Shown here piece by piece: positions 12,926 to 57,579 of a stretch of 64,000 nt of DNA. The stretch comes from an uncultured Chthonomonas sp. (lineage in GTDB: Bacteria > Armatimonadota > Chthonomonadetes > Chthonomonadales > Chthonomonadaceae), in the NCBI GenBank assembly GCA_903859705.1, contig CAIONQ010000050.1:1-64000 (forward strand), in the 5' to 3' direction. The stretch's first letter is position 1. Every line of letters starts with the position of its first letter. The notes below the pieces were generated by a model, which was not told the DNA's origin, did no database searches, and saw only the letters and a list, made by a program, of their open reading frames with translations. The position numbers were made by a program, and so were the translations under genes.

Positions 12926-14593
12926 ATGCTTCGGACAGTATCGAATATCAACGCTAACAAAATCTTCGCTGGTCGCCAGATCGGACTCCTGGCCGCCGCA
13001 GCCGCTCTCATATCCCCGATGGCCTCTATGGCAGATGGCATCGATTACTCAACCGGCTTCTCCTCAGATACCAACCTGATTGTAAATCAGAAAGCAGTTG
13101 CCGGCCTCAAGTGGGATGCCGTTCATGATAATGTTCTTCAGATGACCACCAACCAGATGGGCCCCGGCGGGGCATGGCCCTTCGAGCGCCAGTCGGTGTT
13201 CTTCAACAAGCAGGTAAACGTTTCTGCATTTAAAGTAAGCTTCGATTTCTCTTCGGTAGGCAACCCCGGTTACATGGCAGATGGCCTTACCTTCTGCATC
13301 CAGAACGGTGGCAAAGATGCCCTGGGCAGCGCCGGTGGCGGCCTGGCATACGGTGCGGACCCAACAGTGGGCAAGGGCGATCATATTGATAAGAGTGTAG
13401 CCGTTAAGTTCGATGTTTACCAGAACTGGCCGGATCCTTCCAGCACCTCCACCGGCCTATACCTGAATGGTCAGGTACCCACTGGCGGTGTAGATCTCTC
13501 CAAGTACAACATCGATCTTCGCAGCGGCCACCCGATGCACGTAACCATGCAGTACGATGGCAAGATCCTTGGCGTATCGATTACCGATACCAAAACCGGC
13601 GCAAACGCCTGGCAGCAGTATCAGGTAGATATCCCCGGCACCGTAGGCGGCAACCTGGCTTACGTAGGTTTCACCGGTGCAACCGGCGCAGCCACCAGCG
13701 ATACCGAAGTAAAGACCTGGCTGTTCGCGGCTCCCGATCTTACCCCCACGCTGAACACGGTTTCCATTGATGTAGATAGCATCTGCGGCGGCAAGGTTGC
13801 CAACGGAACCGTAAGCATTGTAAACGCAGTAGCTTCTGATACAGTTATAACGCTGAGCGCATCGGTTGCTCAGCTGGGTGTGCCGAAAACGGTAACCATC
13901 CCGGCAGGTAGCACCTCTGTAAACTTCCCGATCCAGACCATACAGGTAGCCACCAAGATCTCCGGCTCGATCGTTGCAACACTGGGTAAAGCAACCACCA
14001 AGGCTTCTCTGATGATCATGCCGATTACAGTGGACTTCGTACAGGTTCCTGTAGACTATGTTGCCGCAGGGCAGCCAAGCGAAGGCACTGTTACCCTGCA
14101 GTTGGCAGCCCCGGCCGGTGGCCTCACGGTTACCCTTACCAGCCAGAACGATGCAGTTGCATCCATCCCCGCAACGGTAACCATTCCGGAGGGCAGCATC
14201 TCTGCTAGCTTCCCAATCGCTACTGGCGCAGTAACCGTGAACACACCGAACCTGGTAACCGCAACCCTCAACGGCCAGCGCAGAACCAGCACGCTCACAG
14301 TTCGACCGCTGCGAGTGAACTCAGTAACAACATCTATCGCAGTAGCGGCAAGCGGCAAGGGCCTCACCGGTACAGTAACCATCGAGCACCCGGCAACCAG
14401 GGGCGGCGTAACCATCCTGCTCAGCAGCAACAACAGCAGCCTGCAGGTTCCGGCAAGCGTAGTGGTACCGGCCGGTGCCACCACGGTAACCTTCCCGATA
14501 ACCACCAGCGCAGTGAAGGCCGCCATCAAGGCAACCATCACCGCATCCTCCCCGGTGAACAATGTGTACAGCACAGTTGCAGTAAACCCGTAA
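12926..14593 (+). CDS. Exported L-type-lectin-like protein with three Ig-like repeats
   Basis: The 555-residue product has a long signal peptide ending near SMADG (about residue 37). Residues about 40-240 resemble bacterial legume-lectin-like domains: FFNKQVNVSAFKVSFDF, MADGLTFCIQN, a KFDVYQNW strand, and LAYVGFTGATG. The C-terminal 280 residues contain three divergent copies of a beta module of about 90 residues (VTIPAGSTSVNFPI, VTIPEGSISASFPI, VVVPAGATTVTFPI). No sortase signal or PEP-CTERM tail is present. It is probably a secreted or surface-bound carbohydrate-binding protein. AGAAGG precedes the ATG at a rather long distance. A strong terminator follows, so the gene is monocistronic. Confidence 0.7.
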   Translation: MLRTVSNINANKIFAGRQIGLLAAAAALISPMASMADGIDYSTGFSSDTNLIVNQKAVAGLKWDAVHDNVLQMTTNQMGPGGAWPFERQSVFFNKQVNVSAFKVSFDFSSVGNPGYMADGLTFCIQNGGKDALGSAGGGLAYGADPTVGKGDHIDKSVAVKFDVYQNWPDPSSTSTGLYLNGQVPTGGVDLSKYNIDLRSGHPMHVTMQYDGKILGVSITDTKTGANAWQQYQVDIPGTVGGNLAYVGFTGATGAATSDTEVKTWLFAAPDLTPTLNTVSIDVDSICGGKVANGTVSIVNAVASDTVITLSASVAQLGVPKTVTIPAGSTSVNFPIQTIQVATKISGSIVATLGKATTKASLMIMPITVDFVQVPVDYVAAGQPSEGTVTLQLAAPAGGLTVTLTSQNDAVASIPATVTIPEGSISASFPIATGAVTVNTPNLVTATLNGQRRTSTLTVRPLRVNSVTTSIAVAASGKGLTGTVTIEHPATRGGVTILLSSNNSSLQVPASVVVPAGATTVTFPITTSAVKAAIKATITASSPVNNVYSTVAVNP

Positions 14594-17994: not shown

Positions 17995-18978
17995 CTAACT
18001 GCCCAGCAGTGCCATTCGCATCGGCTCGGATTTTGCCACATCCAGCGGGGTGATACCCTTCTTATCTGGCAAGTACGGGTTGGCTCCCCTGCGGCTCAGC
18101 AGCCTAACAAGCTCCACATGCCCGCAGTTAACCGCGCGGCGCAAGGGTGTTTCTCCGTTCTTATCGGCAGCATCTATGGTGGCCCCGGCCTCAAGCAGTG
18201 CCTCTGCAATCCGCAGGGTGCCTCGTCTGGCACTCATATGCAGCGGCGTCATTCCGCCAACACCGGTAATCTGGTTTACATCTGCACCATATTGCAGCAG
18301 CAGTTTCACACCGGCACATCCATCCTCTTCTCTGCGTGTATCGCTGCTGTTTGTTACACGGTAAAGCGGGTTGTGTCCGCCACCCCCCGCCGTGTTTACG
18401 TCCGCTCCCAGCTCCAGCAGTAAACGCATACGGGGCACATCAAGATCGATGGCTGCAGCACAAATAAGGTTTCTGCCGTGGTGGTTGGCACGCACCAGCG
18501 ATGGATCAGATTCCAGAACCTGGCGCAAGCGCGCAACTGGCATTTTATAAAGCGGTAAAAATGGGTCTACCAGGGTAGCCGCCGTACTCGAGAGCTCCGC
18601 AAACAGCTTGTGCCGAACTTCGGCATCCACACCTGCCTCCTGCATGGCGGCATCCATCAGCTTCAACCAGCGCTCCGCCTCGGCATTGCCAATAGCAAGG
18701 TGTGCGTGCCGGCAAACAAGGCTATTTTTGCCCCGGGTTTCCGAGTAATCTGCCGCACCACCCGTAAACTCTGCGAGAAATAGTGCCAGTCTCTCCTCCA
18801 GGCTGTGCATACTTTCAGGGAAGAGCCCCCTCAATATCGGGTCTGATTCTACATTGTGGTGGAAGATCTGGGAGATCTTCCGAAAAACTTCGATACCCCC
18901 AACGGCCTCACACACTCCCTTAAGTGCGCTGTTGGCGAATTTGCCTGGCTTTGCAGTTTTGTTCGGTTTTGCAGCCAT
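17995..18978 (-). CDS. Group 2 truncated hemoglobin fused to ankyrin repeats
   Basis: The ATG at 18978 is favoured by GAAAGG upstream; an upstream in-frame start at 19035 lacks this. Residues about 18-135 match group 2 truncated hemoglobins: GGIEVFRKISQIFHHNV, DPILRGLFPE, LALFLAEFTGGAADYSETRG, then RHAHLAIG carrying the presumed proximal His, and ERWLKLMDAAM. The usual distal Tyr (B10) position appears to be His (FHH instead of FYx). From about residue 150 onward there are four to five ankyrin repeats (LLLELGADVNTAGGGGHNPL, GMTPLHMSARRGTLRIAEALL, NGETPLRRAVNCGHVELVRLL). The globin may sense or bind O2 or NO and pass the signal through the ankyrin surface. Cytoplasmic; no signal peptide. Confidence 0.82.
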   Translation of the reverse strand: MAAKPNKTAKPGKFANSALKGVCEAVGGIEVFRKISQIFHHNVESDPILRGLFPESMHSLEERLALFLAEFTGGAADYSETRGKNSLVCRHAHLAIGNAEAERWLKLMDAAMQEAGVDAEVRHKLFAELSSTAATLVDPFLPLYKMPVARLRQVLESDPSLVRANHHGRNLICAAAIDLDVPRMRLLLELGADVNTAGGGGHNPLYRVTNSSDTRREEDGCAGVKLLLQYGADVNQITGVGGMTPLHMSARRGTLRIAEALLEAGATIDAADKNGETPLRRAVNCGHVELVRLLSRRGANPYLPDKKGITPLDVAKSEPMRMALLGS

Positions 18979-19149
18979 ATTTGCCGACCTTTCTACCGCC
19001 AAACACCGGAGATTTGTTGCTCCATAATAGCCCATATCAACACTCTGGCCTTACGTCTCCTCCATGCAGAATTGTAATTGTTGCACTAAAATCAAAATCT
19101 GGGCTCATAATTGCTATCCGCTTACCATTACACCAGAGGCAAGTCACGC

Positions 19150-21812: not shown

Positions 21813-22331
21813 ATGAGCAGCGATAAGACGGAAGCAGAAACAATCGATCTGGGAGTTTTGAGGAGCCACGGCGAGTTTCACCTTGTTTCCCTCACGGCCA
21901 TCCCCACTGGCACCCTGCTGTTTGATATCGTTGGAACTGAGACAAACACACCCTCCCGCCACTCCGTACAGGTTGGCCCCAATACCCACCTGGTGGTAGA
22001 TGCGGACATCGATACCGAGGCGCACCTGGATAGCTTTCGATGGCAGTTTATGAACCATCATTGTCAGCCCAACTGCGCACTTAAGGGCCGCTCCGTGGTG
22101 TCGGTTCGCAACATCGCACCGTACGAAGAGATCTCCTTTAACTACAATACTACGGAGTTCGAGATGTCTGTGCCGTTCGAATGCCGCTGTGGCAGTGCAG
22201 AATGTCTGGGTGTTATTCGCGGCTACAAGCATCTTTCAGATGCAGAGCGCGAGCGAATTCGGGTATGGACCGCTGAGCACCTCTCCGGGTTAGACGAACC
22301 AACCGTAACCTCCGAAAGTGGCGGCAGTTGA
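21813..22331 (+). CDS. SET-domain protein (lysine methyltransferase-like)
   Basis: The 172-residue protein has the core of a SET domain: FMNHHCQPNC (NHxCxPN signature, AdoMet pocket) at about residue 86, RNIAPYEEISFNYN (GEElxxdY-like motif with catalytic Tyr) at about 108, and a post-SET cysteine cluster, CRCGSAECLG, at about 132. SET enzymes transfer methyl groups from S-adenosylmethionine to lysine amines. Its stop overlaps the start of the giant NRPS-like gene (TTGA), so the two are translationally coupled. This makes a lysine-containing product or carrier of that enzyme a candidate substrate, although a protein target is equally possible. Cytoplasmic. Confidence 0.85.
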   Translation: MSSDKTEAETIDLGVLRSHGEFHLVSLTAIPTGTLLFDIVGTETNTPSRHSVQVGPNTHLVVDADIDTEAHLDSFRWQFMNHHCQPNCALKGRSVVSVRNIAPYEEISFNYNTTEFEMSVPFECRCGSAECLGVIRGYKHLSDAERERIRVWTAEHLSGLDEPTVTSESGGS

Positions 22332-25300
22332 ACGCGGTTGCCGCTGCCCCAAACTCAGAGCTGCTGACAGGCCTTTTCGAGGAAGCCGTTCGCCGCTTTG
22401 CAGATCGCATTGCCATCGATGTGCCGCCCGGCCTGGCCCGGCCAGAGCGATCAACACTAACCTACGCAGAACTGAATCAATGTTCGGATAGCCTCGCAAA
22501 CGCGGTTGTCGATATCCTCAACGGCCCCGGCGTAACGGCCATCCTCCTCTCCCGCCAATCTCCCTGGCTATATATTTCCATGCTGGCCGCGCTAAAAGCT
22601 GGCGCAACATACATCTGCCTGGATCCCTCTTTTCCAGATGCTCAGATTGTCGAGATCCTGCGCGATTCCGGCGCACGTATCCTTCTTACAGATCGTGATG
22701 GTTTTGATTGGGGCAACCACCCGGATCTCCCTGCGCTCCAGGCTCTGAACGTAACGTGTGCTCCCGCTTCTGCCGCCTTGCCTCAGCCGTTGTCGCCTAC
22801 GTGGCTCACTCCGCACACGCTTGCCTATATCATTTATACATCTGGCACAACCGGCAAGCCGAAGGGAGTGCAGATAACCCATCGCAGCATCACCAACCTT
22901 ATCCGCTCAGATGTTGCCGAGTTCACTCCTGGCCCCGGCGATAGAATTGCGCAGGGATCGTCTGCCGCCTATGATTCATCTGTAGAAGAGATCTGGATGG
23001 CGCTGGCATCCGGCGCAACCGTTGTGGCGATGGATGAGGACGCCGTACGCTCTGGCCCGGACCTTACGCAGTGGCTGAGGGAAGAGCGTATCACGGTGTT
23101 CTGCCCGCCGCCTACGCTGCTGCGTGCTGCCAGCTGTGAGGATCCCGCCGGCGAACTGCCGGAGCTAAGGCTGCTCTATGTTGGGGGCGAGGCGCTGCCA
23201 ACCGATGTCGTCGATCTCTGGGCCCCGGGCCGCAGGCTGGTGAATGGGTATGGGCCTACCGAGTGTACGGTTACGGCGCTCCGCACTGATATCCAACCTG
23301 GCGATCCGATCCGCATCGGCCGTCCGGTACCCGGTGCAAACGCATTCATTCTGGATGCCGATCTAAACCTGCTTCCAAATGGCGAACCAGGCGAACTGTG
23401 CATCTCAGGCATCGGCCTGGCGGTGGGATATCATGAACGGCCGGATCTTACATCCGAGCGGTTTCCCCTACACCCCGTATTCGGCAGGATCTACAGAACT
23501 GGCGACCTCGCATTACGTTCTGCCGATGGGGAGTTCACATACTGCGGTCGGCTCGATTCGCAGGTAAAACTACGCGGCTACCGCATCGAGCTGGAGGCGA
23601 TAGAGGCATGCCTTGCAGAGCAACCCGGTGTGCGAGAAGCAGCCTGCAGGGTGCAGGATACCGCCAGTCGGCAGGAGATAGCGGCGCACATCGTGCCCGC
23701 AAACAGCGCATCCCCACCCGATTTCGGCTCACTGAAGGCCGCCATCCGAACGGCGCTGCCTGCCTATATGGAGCCAGCGGTGTTCGGCCTGCTGAAGGAG
23801 CTTCCCAAATCCATTGGCGGCAAAATCAAGCGAGATGCGCTGCCCATTCTCAAGCTGCATGGCGCCGATTCAAAACGCCCCATCATTGCGCCCAGCACCG
23901 AGATCGAGGCTCTGCTCTGTGCGCTGATCTGTGAAGTGCTTGATTCCGACCGGGCCATCTCCACGGATGATGATTTCTTCCACGATCTGGGCGGAAGCTC
24001 TCTCACCGCTGCGCGCCTTATATCCAAACTGCGTAAAAGTGCGGCTACCTCTGGCCTCACCGTTCGCGATATCTACGAATCTCGAACCGTATCCGGGTTG
24101 GCGCAACGCGCCGGCGGGCACTCCGCCCCTGTCCAACGTGCACATCCCGAGAACAATGCCCGGGTTTCCTCCGTTCGCGCAACGGCAACTCAAACGCTTG
24201 TTCTATTGCTAAGGGCGGCTGGCCTATCCTATCTGGCGTATATATCTGCCTGGTTTGCCCTACCTGCAATCATAAGTTCTGTAGGTCCGAAGGCCATGCT
24301 GCTTTCGCTACCAATCGTACTTCCGCTTATTCTGGTGGCCTATACAGCTGCCGCAGTTGCCGGGGCCATTGTTGCAAAACGCCTATTTATCGGCACATAC
24401 AGGCCGCAAAAAGCGCCGGTATGGGGCGATTTCTACATTCGAAACTGGCTGGTTCAGCGCGCAGTGCACCTCGTTCCATGGCAGATTATTGCCGGCACCG
24501 AGTTTCAGTGCATGGCGCTGAGAGCGCTCGGCGCAAATATAGGTAAGCGGGTGCACATCCATCGTGGGGTAGATCTTACAGAGGGCGGGTGGGATCTGCT
24601 GCAGATAGGCGATGATGTTACATTGCAGCAAGATGTGGCGCTGCATTTGGTTCAGCTTGAAGATAGGCAGCTTGTTCTCGGCAACATAATTATTGGCGAT
24701 GGAGCAACGCTGCAAACGCGCGCCGCCATGGGGCCGCACACATCTATTGGTAGAAATGCGGTGCTCTCCGCGCTCTCTTACCTGCCGGAGGGTGGTTCCA
24801 TTCCGGATGGTGCCCTGTGGGATGGCATTGCGGCACAACCTGCGGGCGATGCGGCAAACCCGCCCGCAATATCCTACTCGCAGGATCTTGCACCCATGAT
24901 TGCAGCAATTGCAATGCTCACAGCCAATCTGGCGGTGGCGTTGCTAACCGGGTTGCCATATGTGGCGGCGGCTGCAATCTGGGTGTTTCGGCATGGCGTC
25001 AACTCCGCCGCCATCCACTATCTTTTGCTATATGGCGGGAGCAGTACCGATCTGGTTTCACTAATCGCCGCAGCAATACTGCCGTTCCCGGCTGCTCTGG
25101 CGCTTGAAGCGGCGGTAGCGCGCGCACTGGGCAAAGTGCCCGAGGGTGTCATCTCCCGGTGGTCAATCGCCTACATTCGGGTTTGGATAAAGGCGGGGCT
25201 GGTAGATTCTGCGGGTCACTGGCTCAGCGGTGCGCTCTTCTGGCCGCTCTGGCTACGGCTGGCCGGCATGAAGATAGGCAAGGGGTGCGAAATAAGCACC

Positions 25301-26365
25301 ATTATCGATGTGCTGCCGGAACTGGTAGAAATCGGCGAAGACACCTTTTTTGCCGATGGCATCTACCTTGGCGGGCCAGATATCCAGCGTGGGGCCGTAT
25401 CGCTTCGCAAAACCACCCTCAGCCCCAACACCTTCCTGGGGAACCACTCCGTTATCCGCTCGGGGGATCATCTTCCCGGCGATCTGCTGCTGGGGGTTTG
25501 CACCGTATCCGATGCATCGCGAATGAAGCAGGGCACCTCCTGGTTCGGGCATCCACCTTTCGAGCTACCCGTTCGGGAGATTGTGGAGTGCGATCGCAGC
25601 CTCACGCACAATCCAGGGGTGGTGCGATACACAAACCGCCTTATATGGGAGCTATCGCGGTTTGCCATCCCCGTGCCTGCCGCTTTGCTGGCGGTGGCCT
25701 GGTTTCACGCCGTTGGCGCTGTGTTCTTGCAAGGTAACATTGTTGGAGCGGCTGTAGAGCTGCCCTGCATTGCCCTTGTTTTTGAAATACTGCCCTGCAT
25801 GCTCATACTTGCGCTTAAATGGCTGCTGCTGGGGCGCGTGCGGCCTGGCACACATCCGCTGTGGTCCTGCTGGTGCAGCAGGTGGGATTTTCTGTACGTT
25901 GCGTGGGGATTTTATGGGAGAGCGCTGCTAACATCGCTGGAAGGTACAGAAATGCTCACCGCGTATCTGCGAGCGGTGGGAATGAAAATAGGAAAAGGCG
26001 TTGTGCTGGGGCACGGCTCGGCTCAGGTAGTCGATCCGGATATGCTCGAATTTGGCGATTACTCCACCATAAGCGCCATGTTTCAGGCGCATACCTTTGA
26101 GGATAGGGTGCTAAAGATTGATACGGTGGTTGTTGGTAAATACGCAACCCTCGGGGCCGCAACGGTTCCACTTTATGGGGCAGTGATAGGTGATAACACA
26201 CTCGTAACTCCGCACGGAGTTGTTATGAAGCAGGAGCTTCTGCTGCCCAACATCATCTACGAAGGCGCACCCACGCGAGCCCAGGTTGCGCCGCATCCGA
26301 TAGCCCAAACCAGAGCCCCACAACCGCATGAGATAGAGCCCGACATTGCAAGGCAAATGCGTTAA
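22328..26365 (+). CDS. Pls/PosA-type single-module NRPS with membrane and hexapeptide domains
   Basis: The TTG start overlaps the SET gene stop. In the 1345-residue product, residues about 15-520 are an adenylation domain with motifs YIIYTSGTTGKPKG, NGYGPTE, YRTGDLA, a GYRIELEAIE hinge and GGKIKRDAL. Residues about 530-600 are a carrier domain with the phosphopantetheine Ser in DLGGSSLTAARL (about 557). There is no condensation or thioesterase domain. The remainder alternates hydrophobic membrane stretches (about 620-690, 855-930, 1115-1185) with three left-handed beta-helix hexapeptide domains (about 732-830, 980-1067, 1216-1300). This is the architecture of epsilon-poly-lysine synthetase and related isopeptide polymer synthetases, where the tandem C-domains link monomers. 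Hand-read specificity residues are roughly D-S-E-C-L-V-G-V-T-K; Glu at the third position resembles Lys-activating codes, so a basic amino acid is likely. Confidence 0.85.
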   Translation: MNAVAAAPNSELLTGLFEEAVRRFADRIAIDVPPGLARPERSTLTYAELNQCSDSLANAVVDILNGPGVTAILLSRQSPWLYISMLAALKAGATYICLDPSFPDAQIVEILRDSGARILLTDRDGFDWGNHPDLPALQALNVTCAPASAALPQPLSPTWLTPHTLAYIIYTSGTTGKPKGVQITHRSITNLIRSDVAEFTPGPGDRIAQGSSAAYDSSVEEIWMALASGATVVAMDEDAVRSGPDLTQWLREERITVFCPPPTLLRAASCEDPAGELPELRLLYVGGEALPTDVVDLWAPGRRLVNGYGPTECTVTALRTDIQPGDPIRIGRPVPGANAFILDADLNLLPNGEPGELCISGIGLAVGYHERPDLTSERFPLHPVFGRIYRTGDLALRSADGEFTYCGRLDSQVKLRGYRIELEAIEACLAEQPGVREAACRVQDTASRQEIAAHIVPANSASPPDFGSLKAAIRTALPAYMEPAVFGLLKELPKSIGGKIKRDALPILKLHGADSKRPIIAPSTEIEALLCALICEVLDSDRAISTDDDFFHDLGGSSLTAARLISKLRKSAATSGLTVRDIYESRTVSGLAQRAGGHSAPVQRAHPENNARVSSVRATATQTLVLLLRAAGLSYLAYISAWFALPAIISSVGPKAMLLSLPIVLPLILVAYTAAAVAGAIVAKRLFIGTYRPQKAPVWGDFYIRNWLVQRAVHLVPWQIIAGTEFQCMALRALGANIGKRVHIHRGVDLTEGGWDLLQIGDDVTLQQDVALHLVQLEDRQLVLGNIIIGDGATLQTRAAMGPHTSIGRNAVLSALSYLPEGGSIPDGALWDGIAAQPAGDAANPPAISYSQDLAPMIAAIAMLTANLAVALLTGLPYVAAAAIWVFRHGVNSAAIHYLLLYGGSSTDLVSLIAAAILPFPAALALEAAVARALGKVPEGVISRWSIAYIRVWIKAGLVDSAGHWLSGALFWPLWLRLAGMKIGKGCEISTIIDVLPELVEIGEDTFFADGIYLGGPDIQRGAVSLRKTTLSPNTFLGNHSVIRSGDHLPGDLLLGVCTVSDASRMKQGTSWFGHPPFELPVREIVECDRSLTHNPGVVRYTNRLIWELSRFAIPVPAALLAVAWFHAVGAVFLQGNIVGAAVELPCIALVFEILPCMLILALKWLLLGRVRPGTHPLWSCWCSRWDFLYVAWGFYGRALLTSLEGTEMLTAYLRAVGMKIGKGVVLGHGSAQVVDPDMLEFGDYSTISAMFQAHTFEDRVLKIDTVVVGKYATLGAATVPLYGAVIGDNTLVTPHGVVMKQELLLPNIIYEGAPTRAQVAPHPIAQTRAPQPHEIEPDIARQMR

Positions 26366-45430: not shown

Positions 45431-46069
45431 CCAGCAAACGCTATTTGCACAAAGGGTAGCAACACACTTCCTCCGGAAGCTCACTTAAGCTTCGGATACC
45501 TTGCTGTGCTGATCTCATCATAAACCGAACGGAAGGTAACCACAATACTCAGGCGTTTAAGCACGGTGCCATTCGCTGCGGAGTTGTGGCGAGTGCATAT
45601 CGTAGTCGGTGTTATCCTTTAATGCCGATGATCCTTAGATGTTCATCTACATCATCCAAATCACTCCAACTACCCGCACCTATACGCGATGTAATACTAT
45701 AGAGTTCGGGGTTGGCCAGCTCCCGTGTTTCCGCGCAACCTTAGGCACCATTCGCAGGGTAACACGGGATCAACGGAGCGCTGTAAGGCAACTGGCAGGG
45801 TGTGATTGAGGGGTGGTGCTTATTCAGCCAGCGGGGCTGCAAACACAAAGCGCACCCCTAGAGTCCAGTGCAGGAAATAGCACCCATGCAACGAATATTG
45901 CGGTATAAGTTTCTTTTGATCAGTCGGCGGATTGCGCATTGCGTCCTGCCGTGTGACAATTACTGTACCTGGCGCTGTTTGTCTGCTTAATAGATTAATC
46001 CGGGCGGTGTTCTTTCAGGCACCGATAAACGGCACCAACCCCTTACGCTCAGGTTTAGAAAGCCAATTC
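45431..46069. other. Non-coding region before the restriction-modification island
   Basis: About 640 bases contain no gene I can support. On the minus strand short open stretches near 45480-45745 read like coding sequence (ANPELYSITSRIG and FRSVYDEISTARY) in different frames without starts, possibly a decayed gene. The hsdM promoter was not identified; a frame upstream of hsdM (from 45932) is in phase but lacks family similarity. Confidence 0.35.
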
Positions 46070-48223
46070 ATGGAACAGCAACAGCTCGGCTGGATCACCA
46101 ACTTCATCTGGGGCATCGCAGACGACGTCCTTAGAGATGTATATGTGCGTGGTAAATACCGGGACGTAATTTTGCCAATGGTAGTTATCAGGCGCCTGGA
46201 TGCCGTTCTGGAGCCCAGCAAGCAGGCGGTGCTCAGCATGAAAGCACAGCTAAACAAGGCAAATATTGCTAACCAGGATGCGGCCCTGCGCCACGCCTCC
46301 GGCCAGGCGTTTTACAACAGCTCTCAGTTCACCCTGAGGGATTTGAAAGCCCGTACACGCATTCAGCAGCTTAAAGCAGATTTTGAGGATTACCTGGATG
46401 GCTTCTCACCCAACGTTCAGGAGATCCTTGAGAAGTTCAAATTCAGAAACCAGATAGCCACGCTGGTAGATGCAGAAATTCTGGGTGGCATGCTGGATAA
46501 GTTTCTGGATCATAGCATCAACCTTGCACCGCAGCCAGTTTATGATTCCGCAGGCAACGTTCGCCTGCCCGCCCTGGATAACCACGCCATGGGCACCATG
46601 TTTGAAGAGCTCATCCGCAGGTTTAACGAAGAAAACAACGAGGAAGCCGGAGAGCACTTCACCCCGCGTGATGTGGTGAAGCTCATGGCAGATCTCATCT
46701 TCCGCCCTATTGCCTCCGAAATTACGGATGGAACCTACACAGTTTACGATGCCGCTTGCGGTACCGGCGGCATGCTAACCGTTGCAGAAGAACGGCTAAA
46801 GCAGCTGGCAGAAGAACAGGGCAAACAGGTTTCCGTACACCTGTTCGGGCAAGAGGTACAGCCAGAAACATACGCCATCACACGTGCAGACCTGCTGTTG
46901 AAAGGCGAGGGTGCCGAAGCAGATAACTTTGTGTATGGCTCTACACTTTCTGCCGATGGTTTTGCACGCAACGAATTCGATTTCATGCTCTCCAATCCAC
47001 CGTACGGCAAAAGCTGGAAAAACGACATGGAGAAAATGGGCGGCAAAGGAGACATGCGCGATCCTCGCTTTCACGTTATGCATCACGGCGAGCAGCTATC
47101 ACTTATAACCCGCAGCAGTGATGGCCAGCTGATGTTTCTGGTAAACAAGCTTACCAAAATGAAGCAGAGCGGCCGCCACGGCAGCCGTATTGCAGAGGTT
47201 CATAACGGTAGCTCACTGTTCACAGGGGATGCTGGCCAGGGCGAGAGCAATATTCGGCGCTGGATATTGGAAAACGACTGGCTGGAGGCCATTATCGCCC
47301 TGCCGCTCAACATGTTTTACAACACCGGCATCGCCACCTACATCTGGGTGCTCACCAATAAAAAGCCAGAGCATCGGAAAGGCAAAGTGCAGTTAATCGA
47401 TGCCTCAGGCTGGTTTAAGCCGCTTCGCAAAAACCTTGGCAGCAAAAACTGTGAGCTTGCGGATGAGCACATCCAGCAAATTGTAGATACCTTCCTCGCA
47501 TTTGAAGACAGCACGCAGTCTAAGATCTTTCCGAATGCCGCTTTCGGATATTGGAAAGTAACAGTAGAGCGCCCACTGCGCCTCCGCATAGACCTGTCAC
47601 CCGCAAAACGCGCCGCGTTTCGCAACGCGTGTGCTGGTGCAGCAGACCTGCCGCTGGCAACCCTGGCCGTGCACCTCGCTGAAAAGCTGGGTGCTGGCCC
47701 CCATTACGATTGGAACAGTTTTCTTGCTGCCGCAGAAAAGGCCGGCGAAGAGTGCAAGTGCAAGCTGAACGCAAAACGTATAAAGATGCTTCAAACCGAA
47801 CTTGCCGTAAGGGACGAATCCGCGCAGCCCGTTATACGCAAGGTTCACAGAGCCACGGTTACGCCAGACCCGTTCCATGGCACCTACGAAGTGCAGCTCA
47901 ACGGCAAGCCAGGCGTGGTGGAATATGAGCCAGATTCAGAACTTCGAGATTCCGAGAGTGTGCCGCTGCTGGAACCGGGGGGGATAGAAGCGTTCATCCG
48001 CAGAGAAGTGCTGCCGCATGTTCCCGATGCCTGGGTTGTGGCCGATAAAACACAGATAGGCTACGAAATCAGCTTTACCCGCTACTTCTACAAACCAAAG
48101 CCAATGCGCACGCTCGCCGAAATCCGTGCAGACATAGAAGCACTGGAGAGAGAAACCGAGGGCCTGCTGCAAGAAGTTCTGGTGGAGGTGGAAGGCACAG
48201 GGATGATTGGCAATGCCGATTGA
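46070..48223 (+). CDS. hsdM: Type I restriction-modification DNA methyltransferase subunit
   Basis: The ATG at 46070 gives the family N-terminus (LGWITNFIWGIADDVLRDVYVRGKYRDVILPM); the longer frame adds 46 unrelated residues. The 717-residue product is an N6-adenine methyltransferase: DAACGTGGML (AdoMet binding, motif I) at about residue 232 and SNPPYGKSW (catalytic motif IV) at about 307; the HFTPRDVVKLMADL segment is typical of HsdM. The C-terminal region includes a variable domain and a helical end (AEIRADIEALERETEGLL) that contacts HsdS. It overlaps the next ORF by 11 bases. First gene of the six-gene defence operon. Confidence 0.93.
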   Translation: MEQQQLGWITNFIWGIADDVLRDVYVRGKYRDVILPMVVIRRLDAVLEPSKQAVLSMKAQLNKANIANQDAALRHASGQAFYNSSQFTLRDLKARTRIQQLKADFEDYLDGFSPNVQEILEKFKFRNQIATLVDAEILGGMLDKFLDHSINLAPQPVYDSAGNVRLPALDNHAMGTMFEELIRRFNEENNEEAGEHFTPRDVVKLMADLIFRPIASEITDGTYTVYDAACGTGGMLTVAEERLKQLAEEQGKQVSVHLFGQEVQPETYAITRADLLLKGEGAEADNFVYGSTLSADGFARNEFDFMLSNPPYGKSWKNDMEKMGGKGDMRDPRFHVMHHGEQLSLITRSSDGQLMFLVNKLTKMKQSGRHGSRIAEVHNGSSLFTGDAGQGESNIRRWILENDWLEAIIALPLNMFYNTGIATYIWVLTNKKPEHRKGKVQLIDASGWFKPLRKNLGSKNCELADEHIQQIVDTFLAFEDSTQSKIFPNAAFGYWKVTVERPLRLRIDLSPAKRAAFRNACAGAADLPLATLAVHLAEKLGAGPHYDWNSFLAAAEKAGEECKCKLNAKRIKMLQTELAVRDESAQPVIRKVHRATVTPDPFHGTYEVQLNGKPGVVEYEPDSELRDSESVPLLEPGGIEAFIRREVLPHVPDAWVVADKTQIGYEISFTRYFYKPKPMRTLAEIRADIEALERETEGLLQEVLVEVEGTGMIGNAD

Positions 48224-51200
48224 CTTTAAGGCTCTGAGCGAAGAAAACCTTCGACGATATGGCACGGATGTTGGTTTGTGGGCACCAGGATTGCTCGCGA
48301 ATCTTTATCACGAACGAATTCACTTCGTTTTTGAGTTGCTGCAGAACGCAGAAGATGCCATTCGCAAACGTGTAGCAGACGGGCCGAACTCCGTTAGATT
48401 CCACTTGTCGCGCGCTGGTTTAACCGTTACACATTATGGCAAACCCTTTGACGAGTCAGACGTAAGAGGACTTTGCGGAATAAGTCAGAGTACCAAACGA
48501 GACGAACTAACGGCTATAGGTAGGTTCGGAATTGGATTTAAGTCTGTTTACGCAGTTACGAATGAGCCGCAGATAAGTTCTGGAGGACATCATTTTGCCG
48601 TCGAAAACTATGTTCATCCCGTAGAACTGCCGCCCACTACCCTGGAGTCTTCCTGCACCCGCTTCTGGCTGCCATTTAGAGATGGGGATGGTTCTATTTA
48701 TGACGAGATTGCAGAAGGCCTTCAGTCACTCGATTCGCGAACGTTGCTGTTCTTAAAATACATTGATGCTGTGAACTGGGAGATTGAGGACGGGGAAACG
48801 GGTAACTACGTCCGGCACGCCGAAGATATGCAGCCGGGGGTGAAGATAGTTACGCTGGCTTCTTCGGCAAGCATTGGCCGCGAGTCGGCGACTGAACGTT
48901 GGCTCGTTTTCGCCAACAAGGTTGAATTTGAAGGTAACGCTGTTGGATTTGTTGAGGTGGGGTATGCCCTCAATTCAGCGGGCGCAGAGCGTGATCTCTC
49001 AATAAAATATGCATCGAACTCACGGATCGTCGCTTCTTTCCCCACCGGTGTCTCTACCAACCTTGGCGTGCTGTTGCAGGGTCCGTACAGAACAACACCA
49101 GCTCGAGATAATGTGCCACCCAAAGATGATTGGAACCAGCATTTGGTCCATGAAACTGCGCGACTACTGGTAGCTTCACTGGGGATACTGCGGGATCTGA
49201 ATGCACTTTCTGTCGATGTACTTGGTTGCCTTCCAATCGACAAAAAGACCTTTGGTCCAGGGAGTATGTTTGAGCCCTTGTACTTACAAGTCGCTGATGC
49301 AATACGCTCACAGCAACTGCTTCCATCCTATAGATCTGGATGGGTGGCCAGTACGCAGGCTGCACTTGCTGGCACACGTGGAATCGCCGACCTCTTGGAT
49401 GCGAATCAGCTAATGACGGTGCTTGAATTGCCAAATTGCATCGAATGGCTTAATCCATCAATTACTGTTGATCGTTCCCCAAAGCTGCGCACGTATCTGA
49501 TTGAAGAACACGCCGTTCAAGAACTGCAGCCACAGTATTTACTAAGTAAATTCACGAAGGAATTTCTGGAAGCACAGACAGATGAGTGGATACAGCGTCT
49601 TTACGCGTTTTTGAATGGACATCCACAACTATTTAAACAAACAACTATTGCCAACAAGCCATGGGTGAGGTTGGAAGGTGGCACCCATGTAACTGCCTTC
49701 ATCGGAAGACAACCGAATGCCTTCTTGCCTACAGGCTCCCCATCTGGATTTCCAACCGTGCGGGCAGCACTTTGCACAAGTGAAACCGCACTCAATTTCC
49801 TGAAAGAGACTCTAAACCTAACAGTGCCAGATCCTGTAGATGATGTAATTGCGAATATACTTCCGTATTACAGCGCAAATGATAGCCAAGAACATGATCT
49901 GGCCATATTTGAGGAACACCTGAAGGCGATTGCGGTTGCCTACAAAACTGATTCGCGCACCCAACGCGAGCGATTAGTTGCAGCATTATCAGAAGCGAAT
50001 TGGGTACCAGCAGATTGTTACGATTCGGATCGACATTGGCTAAAACCAGCGGAATGTTATTGGCCAACCCAGAGACTAAAGGCACTCTTTGACGGTATTA
50101 CCGGTATTCCCTTTGTCGATCTGTCAATCACGGGTCTTAAAGACGACAGTGTTCGGACAATTATGGTTTCCAGCGGTGTTGCCAGTAGCTTACGGCTTGT
50201 GCAACACACGCCCAGGCTTTCGGATGAGTATAAACGAGAACTTAGAAAACAGACTGGCAACTCCGGGTTAACAGGCAACGAACAGGTGGATGATCGCACG
50301 CTCCTGGGATTGAACGCAATTCTTGCAGGAATAAACACAGATCCTCAAGACCTTGCCTGTGCACGCGGCCAGCTATTGTGGCAAGCCCTCGGCGATGTAA
50401 TTAGTGCAAGGGGCGAGAACATTCTTCAGGCAACGTACTCTTGGGCATTCTACTCGGGCAGACAGGTGAAGTTCCCGGCAAAATTTATACGTTTGCTCAA
50501 GGAAACCAAATGGATACCTTCATCCAGCGGCAGCCTTGTTAAGCCTAAAGACACAGAGTTTGAGGAAATCGAGCCTAACTGGTCTCCAAATGCGGCGCTG
50601 CAATCTGCCCTAAAGTTTCTTCCGGCGGCGGCGAACCTGCTTGCAAAAGAATTTGGTTTGGACTCGGACCTGCTACGCATGTTAAAAACAAACGGTATTA
50701 CAAGTATCGTAGAACTAAAGCAACGCACAGGCTTGAGTCTGGCTGCATCACCTGCTGTGGCAACAATCGCACCTGGGACCGTTGCTGGTGGACACAAGCC
50801 GGCCGAGCCAGGAGTTAGCCATTTAACCAATAATGTACCTGCAACCAGCCTTGCCGCAAACACCATTGAAAACAAGCTTGCCACAGCGCAAGGATCAGAG
50901 GTCCAGGGCTCGCCGTATACTGCAGGTAAAGTTGTCTCCAATTACAGCGGAGTTACTAACAACCCCAGGCACACAGGTAGTGGGGCACGCGAATTTGTAT
51001 CCTATATCGCAGTGCATCCTGTTGCCGATGATGAACATACCCAGGGTGACGCTGATGTCCAGGCTGCAAGAATGGAAATTGAGGAACATGCCATAACGCA
51101 TATATTGAACCTTGAGCCAACCCTCAAACGAACAGCCGCCGGAAACCCTGGTTTCGATCTTTTTGGAGTTGACGAGGCAGGCAATTACAATCGATGGATT

Positions 51201-51452
51201 GAGGTAAAGGCGATGACCGGCAGCTTGGACGACCATCCGGTTGCCATATCGAGAAAACAGTTTGAAATGGCACAAGATAAGGGCACCTGCTTCTGGCTTT
51301 ACATTGTGGAAGCTGCAACCTCAACTTCACCGCGCATCGTCAAGATCCAGAACCCTGCGGGCGTAGTTCGGTCATACACATTCGACCGTGGTTGGCGCGA
51401 ATATGCGATCACAAGTATTGTCGATACAAATACAGGTGAGGTCATCGTATGA
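48213..51452 (+). CDS. Sacsin-like GHKL ATPase fused to DUF3883 (putative defence protein)
   Basis: The ATG at 48213 is inside the hsdM end with GGGATGA upstream. The 1079-residue product begins with a GHKL/Bergerat ATPase: HFVFELLQNAEDA (N-box) at about 40-52, RGLCGISQSTKR and GRFGIGFKSVYAVT (G2) at about 109-122, as in sacsin-type proteins. A long middle region of about 700 residues has no recognised motif. The C-terminal 160 residues match DUF3883, a nuclease-like fold, with GFDLFGVDE and IEVKAMTG forming a D...ExK pattern. Placement between hsdM and hsdS strongly suggests a role in phage or plasmid defence. Not a known subunit of type I enzymes. Biochemical activity is unproven. Confidence 0.8.
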   Translation: MPIDFKALSEENLRRYGTDVGLWAPGLLANLYHERIHFVFELLQNAEDAIRKRVADGPNSVRFHLSRAGLTVTHYGKPFDESDVRGLCGISQSTKRDELTAIGRFGIGFKSVYAVTNEPQISSGGHHFAVENYVHPVELPPTTLESSCTRFWLPFRDGDGSIYDEIAEGLQSLDSRTLLFLKYIDAVNWEIEDGETGNYVRHAEDMQPGVKIVTLASSASIGRESATERWLVFANKVEFEGNAVGFVEVGYALNSAGAERDLSIKYASNSRIVASFPTGVSTNLGVLLQGPYRTTPARDNVPPKDDWNQHLVHETARLLVASLGILRDLNALSVDVLGCLPIDKKTFGPGSMFEPLYLQVADAIRSQQLLPSYRSGWVASTQAALAGTRGIADLLDANQLMTVLELPNCIEWLNPSITVDRSPKLRTYLIEEHAVQELQPQYLLSKFTKEFLEAQTDEWIQRLYAFLNGHPQLFKQTTIANKPWVRLEGGTHVTAFIGRQPNAFLPTGSPSGFPTVRAALCTSETALNFLKETLNLTVPDPVDDVIANILPYYSANDSQEHDLAIFEEHLKAIAVAYKTDSRTQRERLVAALSEANWVPADCYDSDRHWLKPAECYWPTQRLKALFDGITGIPFVDLSITGLKDDSVRTIMVSSGVASSLRLVQHTPRLSDEYKRELRKQTGNSGLTGNEQVDDRTLLGLNAILAGINTDPQDLACARGQLLWQALGDVISARGENILQATYSWAFYSGRQVKFPAKFIRLLKETKWIPSSSGSLVKPKDTEFEEIEPNWSPNAALQSALKFLPAAANLLAKEFGLDSDLLRMLKTNGITSIVELKQRTGLSLAASPAVATIAPGTVAGGHKPAEPGVSHLTNNVPATSLAANTIENKLATAQGSEVQGSPYTAGKVVSNYSGVTNNPRHTGSGAREFVSYIAVHPVADDEHTQGDADVQAARMEIEEHAITHILNLEPTLKRTAAGNPGFDLFGVDEAGNYNRWIEVKAMTGSLDDHPVAISRKQFEMAQDKGTCFWLYIVEAATSTSPRIVKIQNPAGVVRSYTFDRGWREYAITSIVDTNTGEVIV

Positions 51453-52858
51453 ATACTACCTTGAGGCCGTACGAACATTATGTGGACATGGGCTTGCCCT
51501 TGGCGCAGCGGTACCCAGGGCATTGGGCGCTACAGAGAATCAAGTTTTTATTTAATGAGCGGTCTGAAAAGGGCTTTCCAGATGAGCCCCTGCTTGCATC
51601 TTCGCAAAGCCACGGAGTAATAGCAAAGTCAGATTATGCCACGCGCACGGTTGAAGCTCAGAAGGACCTCCACCTACTAAAGCTCGTTGAGATCGGCGAC
51701 TATGTCATCTCATTGAGATCATTTCAAGGGGGCATCGAGTACTCGCACGCAAGGGGCATTATCAGTCCGGCTTATACCGTGCTGGCCCCAGGACCAATGA
51801 GTCAGCGCGGTTATTTCGAGCACCTATTCAAATCTGCACCGTTTGTCGGGAGCATGTCATTATACGTTACAGGCATCCGTGAAGGTCAGAATATTGATTA
51901 CGTGCGGCTTAGCAGGGAATACATACCAGTTCCGCCTCCTGATGAACAAGAGTCAATTGGTCGTTTCATCCGCTACATTGACCTCCGTGTGAACCGGCTT
52001 ATCAAAGCAAAGAAGCGCCTCATCGAGCTGCTGAACGAGCAGAAGCAGGCCATTATTCATCAGGCTGTTACACGGGGCCTCGACCCGGACGTGCCGATGA
52101 AACCAGGTGGCGAGGTATGGCCCGGTACCACGGTACCCAGGCACTGGCACCTGCATCGTCTGAAGGACATCTGTACTATTCAATCCGGTCTGACTCTCGG
52201 TAAGCAATATCTTGTTTCCGACGGTACCGAGTACCCATATTTGCGGGTCGCGAACGTGCAAGCTGAAAGATTGTCGCTAAAGGATGTCAAAACGTTACGT
52301 TTGCCGTCAACGGAAGCTGGCAGGCGTATGTTGCGATATGGAGATTTGCTGCTTACGGAAGGTGGTGATCCGGACAAGCTTGGTCGGGCGTGCATTTGGC
52401 GTGGGGAAATTCATAATTGCCTGCATCAAAACCATGTTTTCGCATTGCGTTGCTATCAGAACGCGATGCCAGAATATGTCCAGATGCTTCTCAATTCCAG
52501 CCACGGCCGTCTGTATTTTGAACGCACCGCAAAGCAAACGACAAATCTGGCAGCAACCAACAAGTCTATGGTTTACGCCTTCGCTGTCTATCTGCCCACT
52601 CCGCTGGAGCAGGCTGCAATCGTCGAATATGTATCGCAGGCAGTCGCTGGCATCGATCACGTACTCGGTACCGCAAGTTCAGAAATCAACCTACTCCGTG
52701 AATACCGCACTCGATTAGTGGCGGATGTGGTTACCGGGCAACTGGATGTGCGCCATCTGCAACTCGCCGACGTTCCAGAAGTTGAAGAAAGCTGTACTGA
52801 TGATGAAAGCGACGATAGTGAAGCAATAGGTGAGCAGGACAGCCTGGAACTGGAGTAA
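51449..52858 (+). CDS. hsdS: Type I restriction-modification specificity subunit
   Basis: ATGA overlap with the preceding gene. The 469-residue product has two target-recognition domains: each is followed by a conserved helical spacer (RVNRLIKAKKRLIELLNEQKQAIIHQAVTRGLDPD at about 172-205 and the C-terminal AEYVSQAVAGIDHVL...REYRTRLVADVVTGQLDVR). Both halves start with a WALQRIKFLF or WHLHRLKDIC type strand. These recognise the two halves of a bipartite DNA sequence; the sequence cannot be read from the protein. An acidic tail (ESCTDDESDDSEAIGEQD) is unusual. Confidence 0.92.
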   Translation: MNTTLRPYEHYVDMGLPLAQRYPGHWALQRIKFLFNERSEKGFPDEPLLASSQSHGVIAKSDYATRTVEAQKDLHLLKLVEIGDYVISLRSFQGGIEYSHARGIISPAYTVLAPGPMSQRGYFEHLFKSAPFVGSMSLYVTGIREGQNIDYVRLSREYIPVPPPDEQESIGRFIRYIDLRVNRLIKAKKRLIELLNEQKQAIIHQAVTRGLDPDVPMKPGGEVWPGTTVPRHWHLHRLKDICTIQSGLTLGKQYLVSDGTEYPYLRVANVQAERLSLKDVKTLRLPSTEAGRRMLRYGDLLLTEGGDPDKLGRACIWRGEIHNCLHQNHVFALRCYQNAMPEYVQMLLNSSHGRLYFERTAKQTTNLAATNKSMVYAFAVYLPTPLEQAAIVEYVSQAVAGIDHVLGTASSEINLLREYRTRLVADVVTGQLDVRHLQLADVPEVEESCTDDESDDSEAIGEQDSLELE

Positions 52859-52862
52859 CCCC

Positions 52863-53501
52863 GTGACGCAGGTACCCAATGATCCCAAAATCTACCATAT
52901 AGTACATGTCAATAATCTGCCATCGATTATCGCGGATGGGTATATCTGGAGCCATGCGAAGGCCATCACACAAGGCATTGCCTATACAGAAATAGGCATG
53001 TCACGGATAAAAAGCCGCCGCCTGTCGATGCCGGTTAGGTCTCACCCAGGACTGATGGTTGGCGCATGTGTGCCATTTTACTTTTGTGCCAGATCAGTCA
53101 TGTTGTACACACTTGCAGGCAACCATCCTGAGCTAGCCTACAAGGGTGGAGATGAGCCGATTGTTCATCTTGAGCTCAGCATGCGTAAAGTCATCGCATG
53201 GGCGGAACAAAGTAATCATAGGTGGGCATTCACTACATCTACGGCAGCGGCTTATCACTTTAACGATTATGTGAAAATTGAGGACCTCACAAAAATTGAC
53301 TGGACTGCAGTGAACGCCCGCTATTGGCCAGAATGCAGCGAGCAGAAGCAGGCGGAGTTCCTGCTGGAAGAAAAGTTGCCATGGGAGCTGGTGCAGACGA
53401 TTGGGGTAAAATCCAAGTGGGCACTGGCAAGGGTTGCGGATGTGCTGCCCGAAAACGCCAATCGACCGCATGTAAGTCTTAAGCCTGAGTGGTACTATTA
53501 G
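52863..53501 (+). CDS. darT: DarT-like DNA ADP-ribosyltransferase toxin (DUF4433)
   Basis: The GTG at 52863, with GGAG seven bases upstream and directly after the hsdS stop, gives the normal family start (PNDPKIYHIVHVNNLPSII); a GTG at 52830 would overlap hsdS. The 212-residue product has the NAD-binding YHIVHVNNL and ARSVMLYT segments and the catalytic Glu in EQKQAEFLLEEKLPW (about 160). DarT modifies thymidine in single-stranded DNA using NAD+, halting replication; in known systems it causes abortive infection by phages. Its antidote darG follows. Confidence 0.9.
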   Translation: MTQVPNDPKIYHIVHVNNLPSIIADGYIWSHAKAITQGIAYTEIGMSRIKSRRLSMPVRSHPGLMVGACVPFYFCARSVMLYTLAGNHPELAYKGGDEPIVHLELSMRKVIAWAEQSNHRWAFTTSTAAAYHFNDYVKIEDLTKIDWTAVNARYWPECSEQKQAEFLLEEKLPWELVQTIGVKSKWALARVADVLPENANRPHVSLKPEWYY

Positions 53502-53518
53502 AAGGGTTTGACGCACGC

Positions 53519-54568
53519 ATGATCGTATTCAAACAGGGCAACCTGCTTACCGAAGATGCCGAAGCCTTGGTAAACACCGTTAACTGCGTGGGCGTTATGG
53601 GCCGTGGAGTGGCGCTTCAGTTTAAGAACGTCTATCCTTCGAACTTCACCGCATATGAGCTTGCCTGCAAGCAAGGCGTGGTAAGACCTGGCAGAATGTT
53701 TGTTTATGAAACTGGCCAGCTGGTTAATCCGAAATTTATTGTCAATTTCCCAACAAAGCGCGACTGGCGCGGCAAGAGCCGCATGGAAGATATTGAAGCT
53801 GGGCTCGCAGCGCTGGTAACTGAAATAGAAGCCCGAGGTATTCGTTCCATCGCATTACCACCGCTCGGCAGCGGTCTCGGCGGTCTCGACTGGGCAACGG
53901 TTCGCCCTTTGATTGTAGGCACGCTGAGCAAGATAAATAACCTGAATGTCGTAATCTTCGAACCGGGCGATAACGCAGGCGACCTGCGCCCCAATATGTC
54001 GACACAGGCCCCAAAAATGACGGCTGGCCGTGCTCTTCTTGTAACCATGATAAATCGCTATTTAGCCGGGCTCCTGGATCCATTTGTAACGCTGCTGGAA
54101 GTTCACAAATTGATGTACTTTTTGCAGGTTGCTGGCCAGCCGCTCAAACTCAATTACGTTAAGCACAAGTACGGACCGTACGCAGAGAACCTGCGACACG
54201 TGCTGAAGAGCATTGAAGGCCACATGGTTACGGGGTATTCCGACGGCGGCGACTACCCTACCAAGCCGCTGCAGCTTGTGCCTGGCGCACTGGAGGATGC
54301 CACTGCATACCTGGATGGCAAAGAGGATCTGCAGAGGCTGGATCGGGTGTGCAAGCTCGTTGATGGTTTTGAAACGCCTACGGGACTGGAACTGCTCGCC
54401 ACCGTGCACTGGGTGGTGGCGGAGCAGGGGGCAAGCAACATTTCTGCCGTGGTTCATGCAGTACATGCCTGGAACACACGCAAAACGCAGTTTACGGAAT
54501 ATCAGATAGACCTGGCACTCCGAGTGCTTGCCCGGCACAACTTTGTGGATAAGCAAATCCTCGCATGA
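53519..54568 (+). CDS. darG: DarG-like macro-domain antitoxin
   Basis: The ATG at 53519 starts the macro domain correctly (MIVFKQGNLLTEDAEALVNTVN); a GTG at 53489 would overlap darT. The 349-residue product has the ADP-ribose binding macro domain with NTVNCVGVMGRG (about 20) and LPPLGSGLGGLDW (about 118), which removes ADP-ribose from DNA. The C-terminal 180 residues form a domain that in DarG binds and blocks DarT (LLEVHKLMYFLQVAGQPL). Its stop overlaps hsdR by four bases (ATGA), placing the pair inside the restriction operon. Confidence 0.9.
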   Translation: MIVFKQGNLLTEDAEALVNTVNCVGVMGRGVALQFKNVYPSNFTAYELACKQGVVRPGRMFVYETGQLVNPKFIVNFPTKRDWRGKSRMEDIEAGLAALVTEIEARGIRSIALPPLGSGLGGLDWATVRPLIVGTLSKINNLNVVIFEPGDNAGDLRPNMSTQAPKMTAGRALLVTMINRYLAGLLDPFVTLLEVHKLMYFLQVAGQPLKLNYVKHKYGPYAENLRHVLKSIEGHMVTGYSDGGDYPTKPLQLVPGALEDATAYLDGKEDLQRLDRVCKLVDGFETPTGLELLATVHWVVAEQGASNISAVVHAVHAWNTRKTQFTEYQIDLALRVLARHNFVDKQILA

Positions 54569-57500: not shown

Positions 57501-57579
57501 AGACAACCCATCGTTCAAGAAATGGCTTGCGGAAAGTAACTTTGCGACTACGTATGTAGAGCGTGAGGCAGGCGGGTAG
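54565..57579 (+). CDS. hsdR: Type I restriction enzyme, endonuclease and motor subunit
   Basis: The 1004-residue product starts at the ATGA overlap. An N-terminal PD-(D/E)XK nuclease is visible (ALDMVIFINGLP followed by FELKNRLTN at about 170-190). SF2 helicase motifs follow: Walker A SAGSGKSNT (about 325), IIIDEAHSSQGGKTA (motif II), and AFTATPKPKTLEVFG (motif III). The helicase C part includes CADKFQTGYDEP and QTLSRLNRSWQNKHDTFVLDF. It translocates DNA and cleaves at a distance when the recognition site is unmethylated, with HsdM and HsdS. Last gene of the six-gene operon. No frameshifts seen. Confidence 0.94.
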   Translation: MTTDTTEKGLELTIMRALTGLSDAQIVGGSNTAVALRRGGYGGGLYYPGISGDYNRDHAVDTVQLFTFLEETQPVEFAQLGLDTAGTKRNQFLNRLQGEVAKRGILSVLLKGISHGPATVKLFYGTPSAGNPTAKQLWEGNRFSVTRQLQYSNDNTRRALDMVIFINGLPLATFELKNRLTNQNVFDAVQQYCRDRDPRELLFQFPRCLVHFAVDDDQVMFCTRLSGKSSRFFPFNIGWRGGAGNPPNPGGLKTDYLWKTILTREGLTDILENYAQFVVIPADKQSPRREELIFPRYHQLDAVRTLLAHAQEHGPGKRYLVQHSAGSGKSNTIAWLARQLVGLEKQGANVFNAVIVVTDRVLLDKQIRDTIRGFTQLANTVGHAEHSGKLKEYLQGGKQIVITTVQKFPFILDDIGNLHRDRSFAIIIDEAHSSQGGKTAAKMNQALSADGKSEEDEDTEDQINRLMEARKMLPNASYFAFTATPKPKTLEVFGVPMPAGEAVKFRAIHNYTMKQAIEEQFILDVLANYTSYKSYYSLVKTVEEDPEFDANKAHRKLKSYVEGHEYAIRQKAEIMVDHFHDHVLNKQKIGGQARAMVVTGSIQRAIEYFQAFQQYLTERKSPYQAIVAFSGEPEFRGNKVTEATLNGFPSAKISEKIKQEPYRFLICADKFQTGYDEPLLHTMYVDKVLTGIKAVQTLSRLNRSWQNKHDTFVLDFVNEPDTIREAFSPFYKTTILSGETDPNRLHDLKADLDGYLVYSPADIDTLVERYLGGDARNRLDPILDQCVANYMDDLDEDQQVDFKGKAKGFLRTYGFLSSVLPYSHAAWEKLSIFLNFLVPKLPAPKETDLSKGVLESIDMDSYRVEARSAMAIALADEDVEIGPQAVTAGGKLPEPELDRLSNILRSFNELFGNIEWKDDDKIRRVITEEIPAKVAADKAYQNAMKNSDKANARIEHDRALENVLVTLVADHMELFKQFSDNPSFKKWLAESNFATTYVEREAGG

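Follow-up and report, generated by a model that had tools for sequence, protein, structure and literature searches.

The window analysed here, a stretch of 64,000 nucleotides from contig CAIONQ010000050.1 of an uncultured Chthonomonas sp. (GCA_903859705.1), belongs to a genome of 6.2 Mb in 179 contigs. On its forward strand, a small gene for a SET-domain methyltransferase runs directly into the gene for a large NRPS of the Pls/PosA type. As the earlier note had described, the stop codon of the SET gene overlaps the TTG start of a 1345-residue enzyme; the four shared bases are TTGA. The features of the pair are as follows:

21813..22331 (+): SET-domain methyltransferase gene, 172 aa, BurB-like subtype, ATG start (Pfam SET, 36.8 bits, 5.4e-9)
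22053..22064 (+): NHxC motif, N81 H82 H83 C84 (in a 44-row alignment H82 and four Cys are invariant and N81 nearly so)
22143..22157 (+): putative catalytic-site Tyr111, then T114-E115 (TTE motif; per-column counts in the alignments)
22328..22331 (+): TTGA, 4-base stop/start overlap of the SET TGA with the NRPS TTG (sequence)
22328..26365 (+): Pls/PosA-like NRPS, whole gene, 1345 aa, TTG start (open reading frame and domain matches)
22376..23842 (+): adenylation (A) domain (AMP-binding match and code alignment)
23912..24109 (+): peptidyl carrier domain (PCP) with the predicted phosphopantetheine Ser558 in LGGSSL, codon 23999-24001 (PP-binding 2.3e-10; motif count)
24143..26293 (+): membrane polymerisation/transfer domain, in which helix pairs alternate with three left-handed beta-helix domains; His1255 in QAHTFED (TIGR02353; AlphaFold2 model)

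The window also contains a type I restriction-modification operon with HsdM, HsdS and HsdR (45932-57579). A sacsin-like/NOV_C TmtA-type protein is encoded between HsdM and HsdS, and a DarT-DarG toxin-antitoxin pair between HsdS and HsdR. A truncated haemoglobin (Bac_globin) domain fused to ankyrin repeats is encoded at 17995-19035 on the reverse strand, and a bacterial protein with a legume-lectin domain at 12926-14593.

The NRPS is a divergent member of the Pls/PosA family

Pfam and NCBIfam matches placed AMP-binding at residues 17-369 of the NRPS, followed by AMP-binding_C, PP-binding at 529-594 and TIGR02353 at 622-1315. The resulting order, A-PCP-(TM/beta-helix)3, is shared with epsilon-poly-L-lysine synthetase (Pls) and delta-poly-L-ornithine synthetase (PosA). 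The epsilon-poly-lysine-synthetase architecture read by the earlier note was therefore borne out, from the A domain and PCP to a TIGR02353 terminal domain with three beta-helix segments. In the AlphaFold2 model of residues 606-1322 (pLDDT 89, pTM 0.90), pairs of helices alternate with segments of left-handed beta-helix, and the best PDB matches of this model in Foldseek were hexapeptide acyltransferases. The same alternation is reported for PosA in the PosA study (PMC10522769).

The window NRPS also differs from Pls and PosA. Its match to TIGR02353, the Pls/PosA terminal domain, covered positions 3-694 of 695 and scored 359-362 bits, below the curated cut-off of 423.1. It has a SET partner and a near-invariant code of its own, DSECYGGVTK, and its end-to-end identity to canonical Pls-type enzymes is about 31%. 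The SET-linked NRPSs form their own clade, with at least 38% identity among themselves and at most 35% to canonical Pls members. In the terminal domain, 39 invariant positions are common to the window NRPS and six canonical sequences; one of these is H1255 of QAHTFED, which is invariant in the SET-linked and canonical sets compared. The same genome encodes a second, canonical Pls/PosA synthetase (G000:C170:36048-38117, locus L018) with the code DGESLGTVGK and a TIGR02353 score of 556 bits, so the window enzyme is not simply the Pls of this organism.

The adenylation code and its pocket

Alignment over the A3-A6 motifs gave the code D216 S217 E220 C259 Y284 G286 G307 V315 T316 K499, or DSECYGGVTK. 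The alignment was anchored on the core motifs AYDSSVEEIW, CPPPT, LYVGGEAL, NGYGPTECTVTA and GGK. The code read by hand in the earlier note, DSECLVGVTK, was out of register and hence wrong at positions 5 and 6; its other positions stand. The Glu at position 3 is real, but it is common to all members of the family and does not point to lysine as the note had taken it to.

The code hardly varies. Among 52 NRPSs, the window's own and 51 encoded directly downstream of a SET gene, 48 carry DSECYGGVTK, three are truncated but agree as far as they go, and the last begins DSES, with Ser at position 4. Thirteen further NRPSs of the same clade have their SET gene elsewhere in the genome; eleven of these have the identical code, one has Met at position 4 and one is incomplete.

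According to the PosA study, the position-1 Asp of PosA binds the alpha-amine and the position-3 Glu the side-chain cation, Asp and Glu at these positions being the Pls/PosA rule, while Thr (position 7) and Ser (position 9) hydrogen-bond the terminal amine (PMC10522769). The window A domain keeps the Asp (D216) and the Glu (E220). It lacks the position-7 Thr and its hydrogen bond to a side-chain amine, with Gly in its place; position 2, which determines length, is Ser, and position 5 is Tyr. An Asp at position 1 indicates that the substrate is an alpha-amino acid, and a Glu at position 3 that it is cationic.

The same study assayed a domain that carries this very code, DSECYGGVTK. This was Bdello_A, the A domain alone of the Bdellovibrionales Pls homologue OFZ39577.1. 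None of four diamino acids tested was favoured, activity with L-Arg was modest, and the authors proposed another substrate, possibly a larger analogue; neither S-methylmethionine nor a methyltransferase is mentioned in the text consulted (PMC10522769). Lysine or another diamino acid as the monomer is therefore not supported, and, by proxy, activation of a diamino acid and assembly of an isopeptide homopolymer by the window NRPS appear unlikely.

Among the canonical codes compared, the closest to the window's is DFECLSAVTK. It occurs in a Pls-type gene on a plasmid of Streptomyces sp. NBC_01527 (locus L200), followed by genes for diaminobutyrate aminotransferase and aspartate kinase. This locus is likely a poly-diaminobutyrate operon, and it provides a precedent for a neighbouring gene that supplies the monomer of such a synthetase.

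The SET enzyme is closest to a methionine S-methyltransferase

When the profile of the SET family was compared with the PDB, the best match was BurB (66.5 bits), followed by a histone methyltransferase (50.9 bits). The AlphaFold2 model of the SET protein (pLDDT 90) had BurB at rank 1 in Foldseek, and VIA-align of the model gave Z 14.3 for BurB and 12.9 for ASH1L. BurB is thus the nearest solved relative in both sequence and fold. It is the SET methionine S-methyltransferase of malleicyprol/DMSP biosynthesis (PDB 9l4t, 9l4v) and converts free methionine to S-methylmethionine, with specificity for Met among the substrates tested (PMC12542666; PMC7496086). Its pathway feeds a thiotemplate enzyme (PMC7496086). 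Like the window SET protein, BurB is a stand-alone SET domain of about 172 aa that serves such an enzyme.

A motif and the core spacing are shared. Y111, T114 and E115 of the window SET protein match Y124, T127 and E128 of BurB, and the TE motif is missing from the aligned histone methyltransferases. The spacing between the core anchors G41 and Q53 is exactly 11 residues in all 83 SET rows and in BurB. Over the SET core, the histone methyltransferases that were aligned are longer than the window family by about 14 residues, a segment that we take to be SET-I, which forms the peptide groove. The histone-lysine enzymes (ASH1L, SETD2, NSD, MLL) do share the SET fold, the NHxC motif, the catalytic Tyr and the four-Cys post-SET with the window protein, in which C84 would form a post-SET zinc site with C124, C126 and C131, judging from the SET fold. 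Their scores are lower, however. The earlier note had been guided by the lysine-amine methylation of SET enzymes, and this guide loses its hold with BurB as the nearest solved relative and the histone-type extra core segment missing.

There are also differences from BurB. Identity is only about 25%, the window family has an extra segment or helix of about 11 residues before NHxC, and BurB was placed weakly in the tree, on a long branch. Of the BurB active-site residues, Y124 and the SAM contact H93 are invariant in the SET family, S88 is replaced by an invariant Trp, and the SAM contacts H72, R133 and H138 are mostly Tyr, Glu and Arg, respectively; BurB L92 is Asn. In BurB itself, S88A and Y124F stay active, and Met is bound mainly through main-chain atoms (PMC12542666). 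BurB feeds decarboxylase, aminotransferase and dehydrogenase steps that lead to DMSP, whereas the window pair lacks such genes and no downstream gene for S-methylmethionine accompanies it.

More distant SET genes were seen beside PKS or NRPS genes in Streptomyces clusters (L180, L181, L183 and L184), two of which include a thiamine-diphosphate enzyme. These loci suggest that there are more natural-product SET methyltransferases. The Streptomyces loci L180-L184 were examined for clues to the substrate; their SET genes lie in thiotemplate clusters, where no DMSP-type gene set was found. The A domains beside the SET gene of L184 have codes unrelated to DSECYGGVTK.

SET and NRPS form a conserved cassette

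A scan of named genomes that used SET motifs and patterns alone returned 80 loci, and the NRPS lay directly downstream of the SET gene in 51 of them. By their record titles, the 51 adjacent pairs include Actinomycetota, Verrucomicrobiota, Planctomycetota, Armatimonadota, Acidobacteriota and others; the Actinomycetota are represented by Lentzea, Kutzneria, Amycolatopsis, Kibdelosporangium, Streptomyces nanshensis and Gandjariella. A candidate NRPS start overlaps the SET stop or sits at most 20 nt away in 44 of the 51 cassettes, a generous count in that the nearest possible start was taken for each. The SET gene is not adjacent in the other 29 loci, and 13 of these genomes encode an NRPS of 44-55% identity elsewhere. 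One contig of Streptomyces melanogenes carries both genes with about 14 kb between them, a spacing that recurs on a 220,250-base Streptomyces replicon.

Co-occurrence was followed in two groups. Among 291 Armatimonadota genomes, 11 have the SET gene, and all 11 have the NRPS as well, matched at E<=1e-200 in 10 and cut at a contig end in the eleventh (hypergeometric p ~1e-17, with no correction for shared ancestry). Three further Armatimonadota genomes, one of them 96% complete, have the NRPS and no detected SET gene. In the actinobacterial family to which a Kutzneria genome belongs, the SET gene was found in 23 of 390 genomes and the NRPS in exactly those 23, a few kb away at most (p ~1e-37, not corrected for phylogeny). 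Pairwise SET and NRPS identities are correlated (r=0.83; the maximum of 2000 permutations was 0.21), although shared history alone would raise this value too.

Clustering of all open reading frames at the 80 loci revealed no generally conserved neighbour besides SET and NRPS, and no consistent partner gene was found at the solo SET loci. The SET gene occurs without an NRPS of the SET-linked clade in about 16 genomes, most of which are MAGs with few exceptions; SET genes that lack the NRPS were seen in Gemmatimonadota. A targeted search detected a DUF418/HGSNAT-like membrane acyltransferase after the NRPS, or fused to it, in a minority of loci. The loci concerned are L061, L073, L096, L108, L011, L012, L023, L134 and L140-L142, with the protein either joined to the C-terminal end of the SET-linked NRPS or encoded by the next gene; it is absent beside the window's pair.

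SET and NRPS are therefore a conserved two-gene cassette found in many bacterial phyla. The earlier note had treated the two genes as belonging together, and adjacency and co-occurrence uphold this, with SET-Pls pairing far beyond chance (51 of 80 loci; 23 of 23 among 390 genomes). We found no paper on this pairing among the open-licence papers searched. The family of each part is already known, and attention had been drawn earlier to the DSECYGGVTK pocket. The same papers yielded no account of a SET partnership, of its breadth or of the hypothesis of an onium monomer.

A possible route through S-methylmethionine

The pair probably produces an amino acid that is methylated and positively charged and then links it, giving a kind of product that is not yet described. 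A cationic, methylated product, as anticipated in the earlier note, is still the most economical reading. We consider it reasonably likely that the NRPS receives a small methylated amino acid from the SET enzyme. More tentatively, at somewhat under an even chance, this would be S-methyl-L-methionine, made by the SET enzyme and activated and joined by the NRPS.

The side chain of S-methylmethionine is that of diaminobutyrate with S+(CH3)2 in place of NH3+. Of the monomers weighed, it fits best with a diaminobutyrate-like code that is opened at positions 2 and 5-7. The SET enzyme would S-methylate free L-methionine with SAM, as BurB does. The A domain could then bind the product, D216 holding the alpha-amine and E220 facing the onium side chain, while S217, G286 and G307 would open room for the methyls. 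The adenylated amino acid would be loaded on the carrier Ser558, as expected for this class of enzyme. By analogy with the Pls family, the membrane beta-helix domain may condense or transfer it. The bond may be an alpha-peptide, giving an oligo- or polysulfonium, or the step may be a single transfer; the sulfonium could also act as a leaving group. In some lineages the DUF418/HGSNAT-like membrane acyltransferase would finish or export the product.

Several observations count against S-methylmethionine. Lacking an amine in its side chain, it could not form the isopeptide that Pls products typically contain. The SET enzyme has low identity to BurB and a weak placement in the tree, with Trp for Ser88, Asn for L92 and the extra segment before NHxC. 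The SET-only genomes and the 96% complete NRPS-only genome also do not sit easily with this reading. Finally, just one A domain with this code has been measured, and its activity, with L-Arg, was modest (PMC10522769).

Other explanations must be weighed against these data. SET domains classically methylate lysine, and the Pls-like architecture and the Glu at code position 3 would suit an NRPS that activates lysine or another diamino acid, with the SET enzyme N-methylating the monomer or the polymer to give the methylated poly-lysine-like isopeptide of the earlier note. N-methyl-lysine would also be a larger analogue of the kind that the PosA authors suspected (PMC10522769). We nevertheless regard this explanation as unlikely, and methylated poly-lysine as unsupported, because Bdello_A, whose code is identical, favoured none of the four diamino acids it was tested with, the amine-holding Thr of PosA is Gly in the window NRPS, and the SET enzyme is nearer to BurB than to the histone methyltransferases with their longer core. 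If instead the monomer were arginine or methylated arginine, and the SET enzyme methylated arginine or acted on an arginine product, the preference of Bdello_A for L-Arg among the substrates tried would be explained. We think this improbable, since we know of no SET enzyme established as an arginine methyltransferase and the authors of the assay called the activity modest and suspected another substrate (PMC10522769).

The SET enzyme could also act in regulation or maturation by methylating a protein, either the NRPS itself (on its carrier or membrane domain) or a different one. Translational coupling and correlated divergence fit an enzyme and its protein substrate as well. This explanation seems no more probable than the arginine one, given that the extra core segment of histone methyltransferases is missing, that BurB, the solved protein most like it, methylates a free amino acid, and that SET genes persist in genomes without an NRPS of the SET-linked clade. 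The Gemmatimonadota SET genes without the NRPS would suit an enzyme that makes S-methylmethionine for general use, as an osmolyte, a methyl store or part of a DMSP-like pathway, next to an NRPS that uses something else, the linkage reflecting shared regulation. We give this very little weight, because shared regulation alone would hardly suffice to keep both genes close together in the same 23 of 390 genomes, with no other conserved neighbour. A chance neighbourhood in the source genome is refuted by the adjacency, co-occurrence and identity-correlation data and carries practically no weight.

Significance

The true substrate of the DSECYGGVTK synthetases was left open in the PosA study (PMC10522769). 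The SET partner offers a concrete candidate that can be tested cheaply, namely a methylated onium amino acid, most likely S-methylmethionine. If the S-methylmethionine reading is true, the combination of a SET gene and DSECYGGVTK would be a marker with which to look for producers among actinomycetes that can be cultured, for example Lentzea, Kutzneria and Kibdelosporangium. In that case, sulfonium would be a new class of monomer in the biosynthesis of cationic homopolymers, the A domain would be one for a sulfonium alpha-amino acid, and the product would be a permanently charged counterpart of poly-lysine. It is possible, though we hold it with some doubt, that oligo- or polysulfonium peptides, or S-methylmethionyl lipids or glycans, constitute a widespread and unrecognised class of products built at the membrane by a SET enzyme and a Pls-like synthetase. 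The roles of SET enzymes would then extend beyond protein lysine to the supply of natural-product building blocks across phyla.
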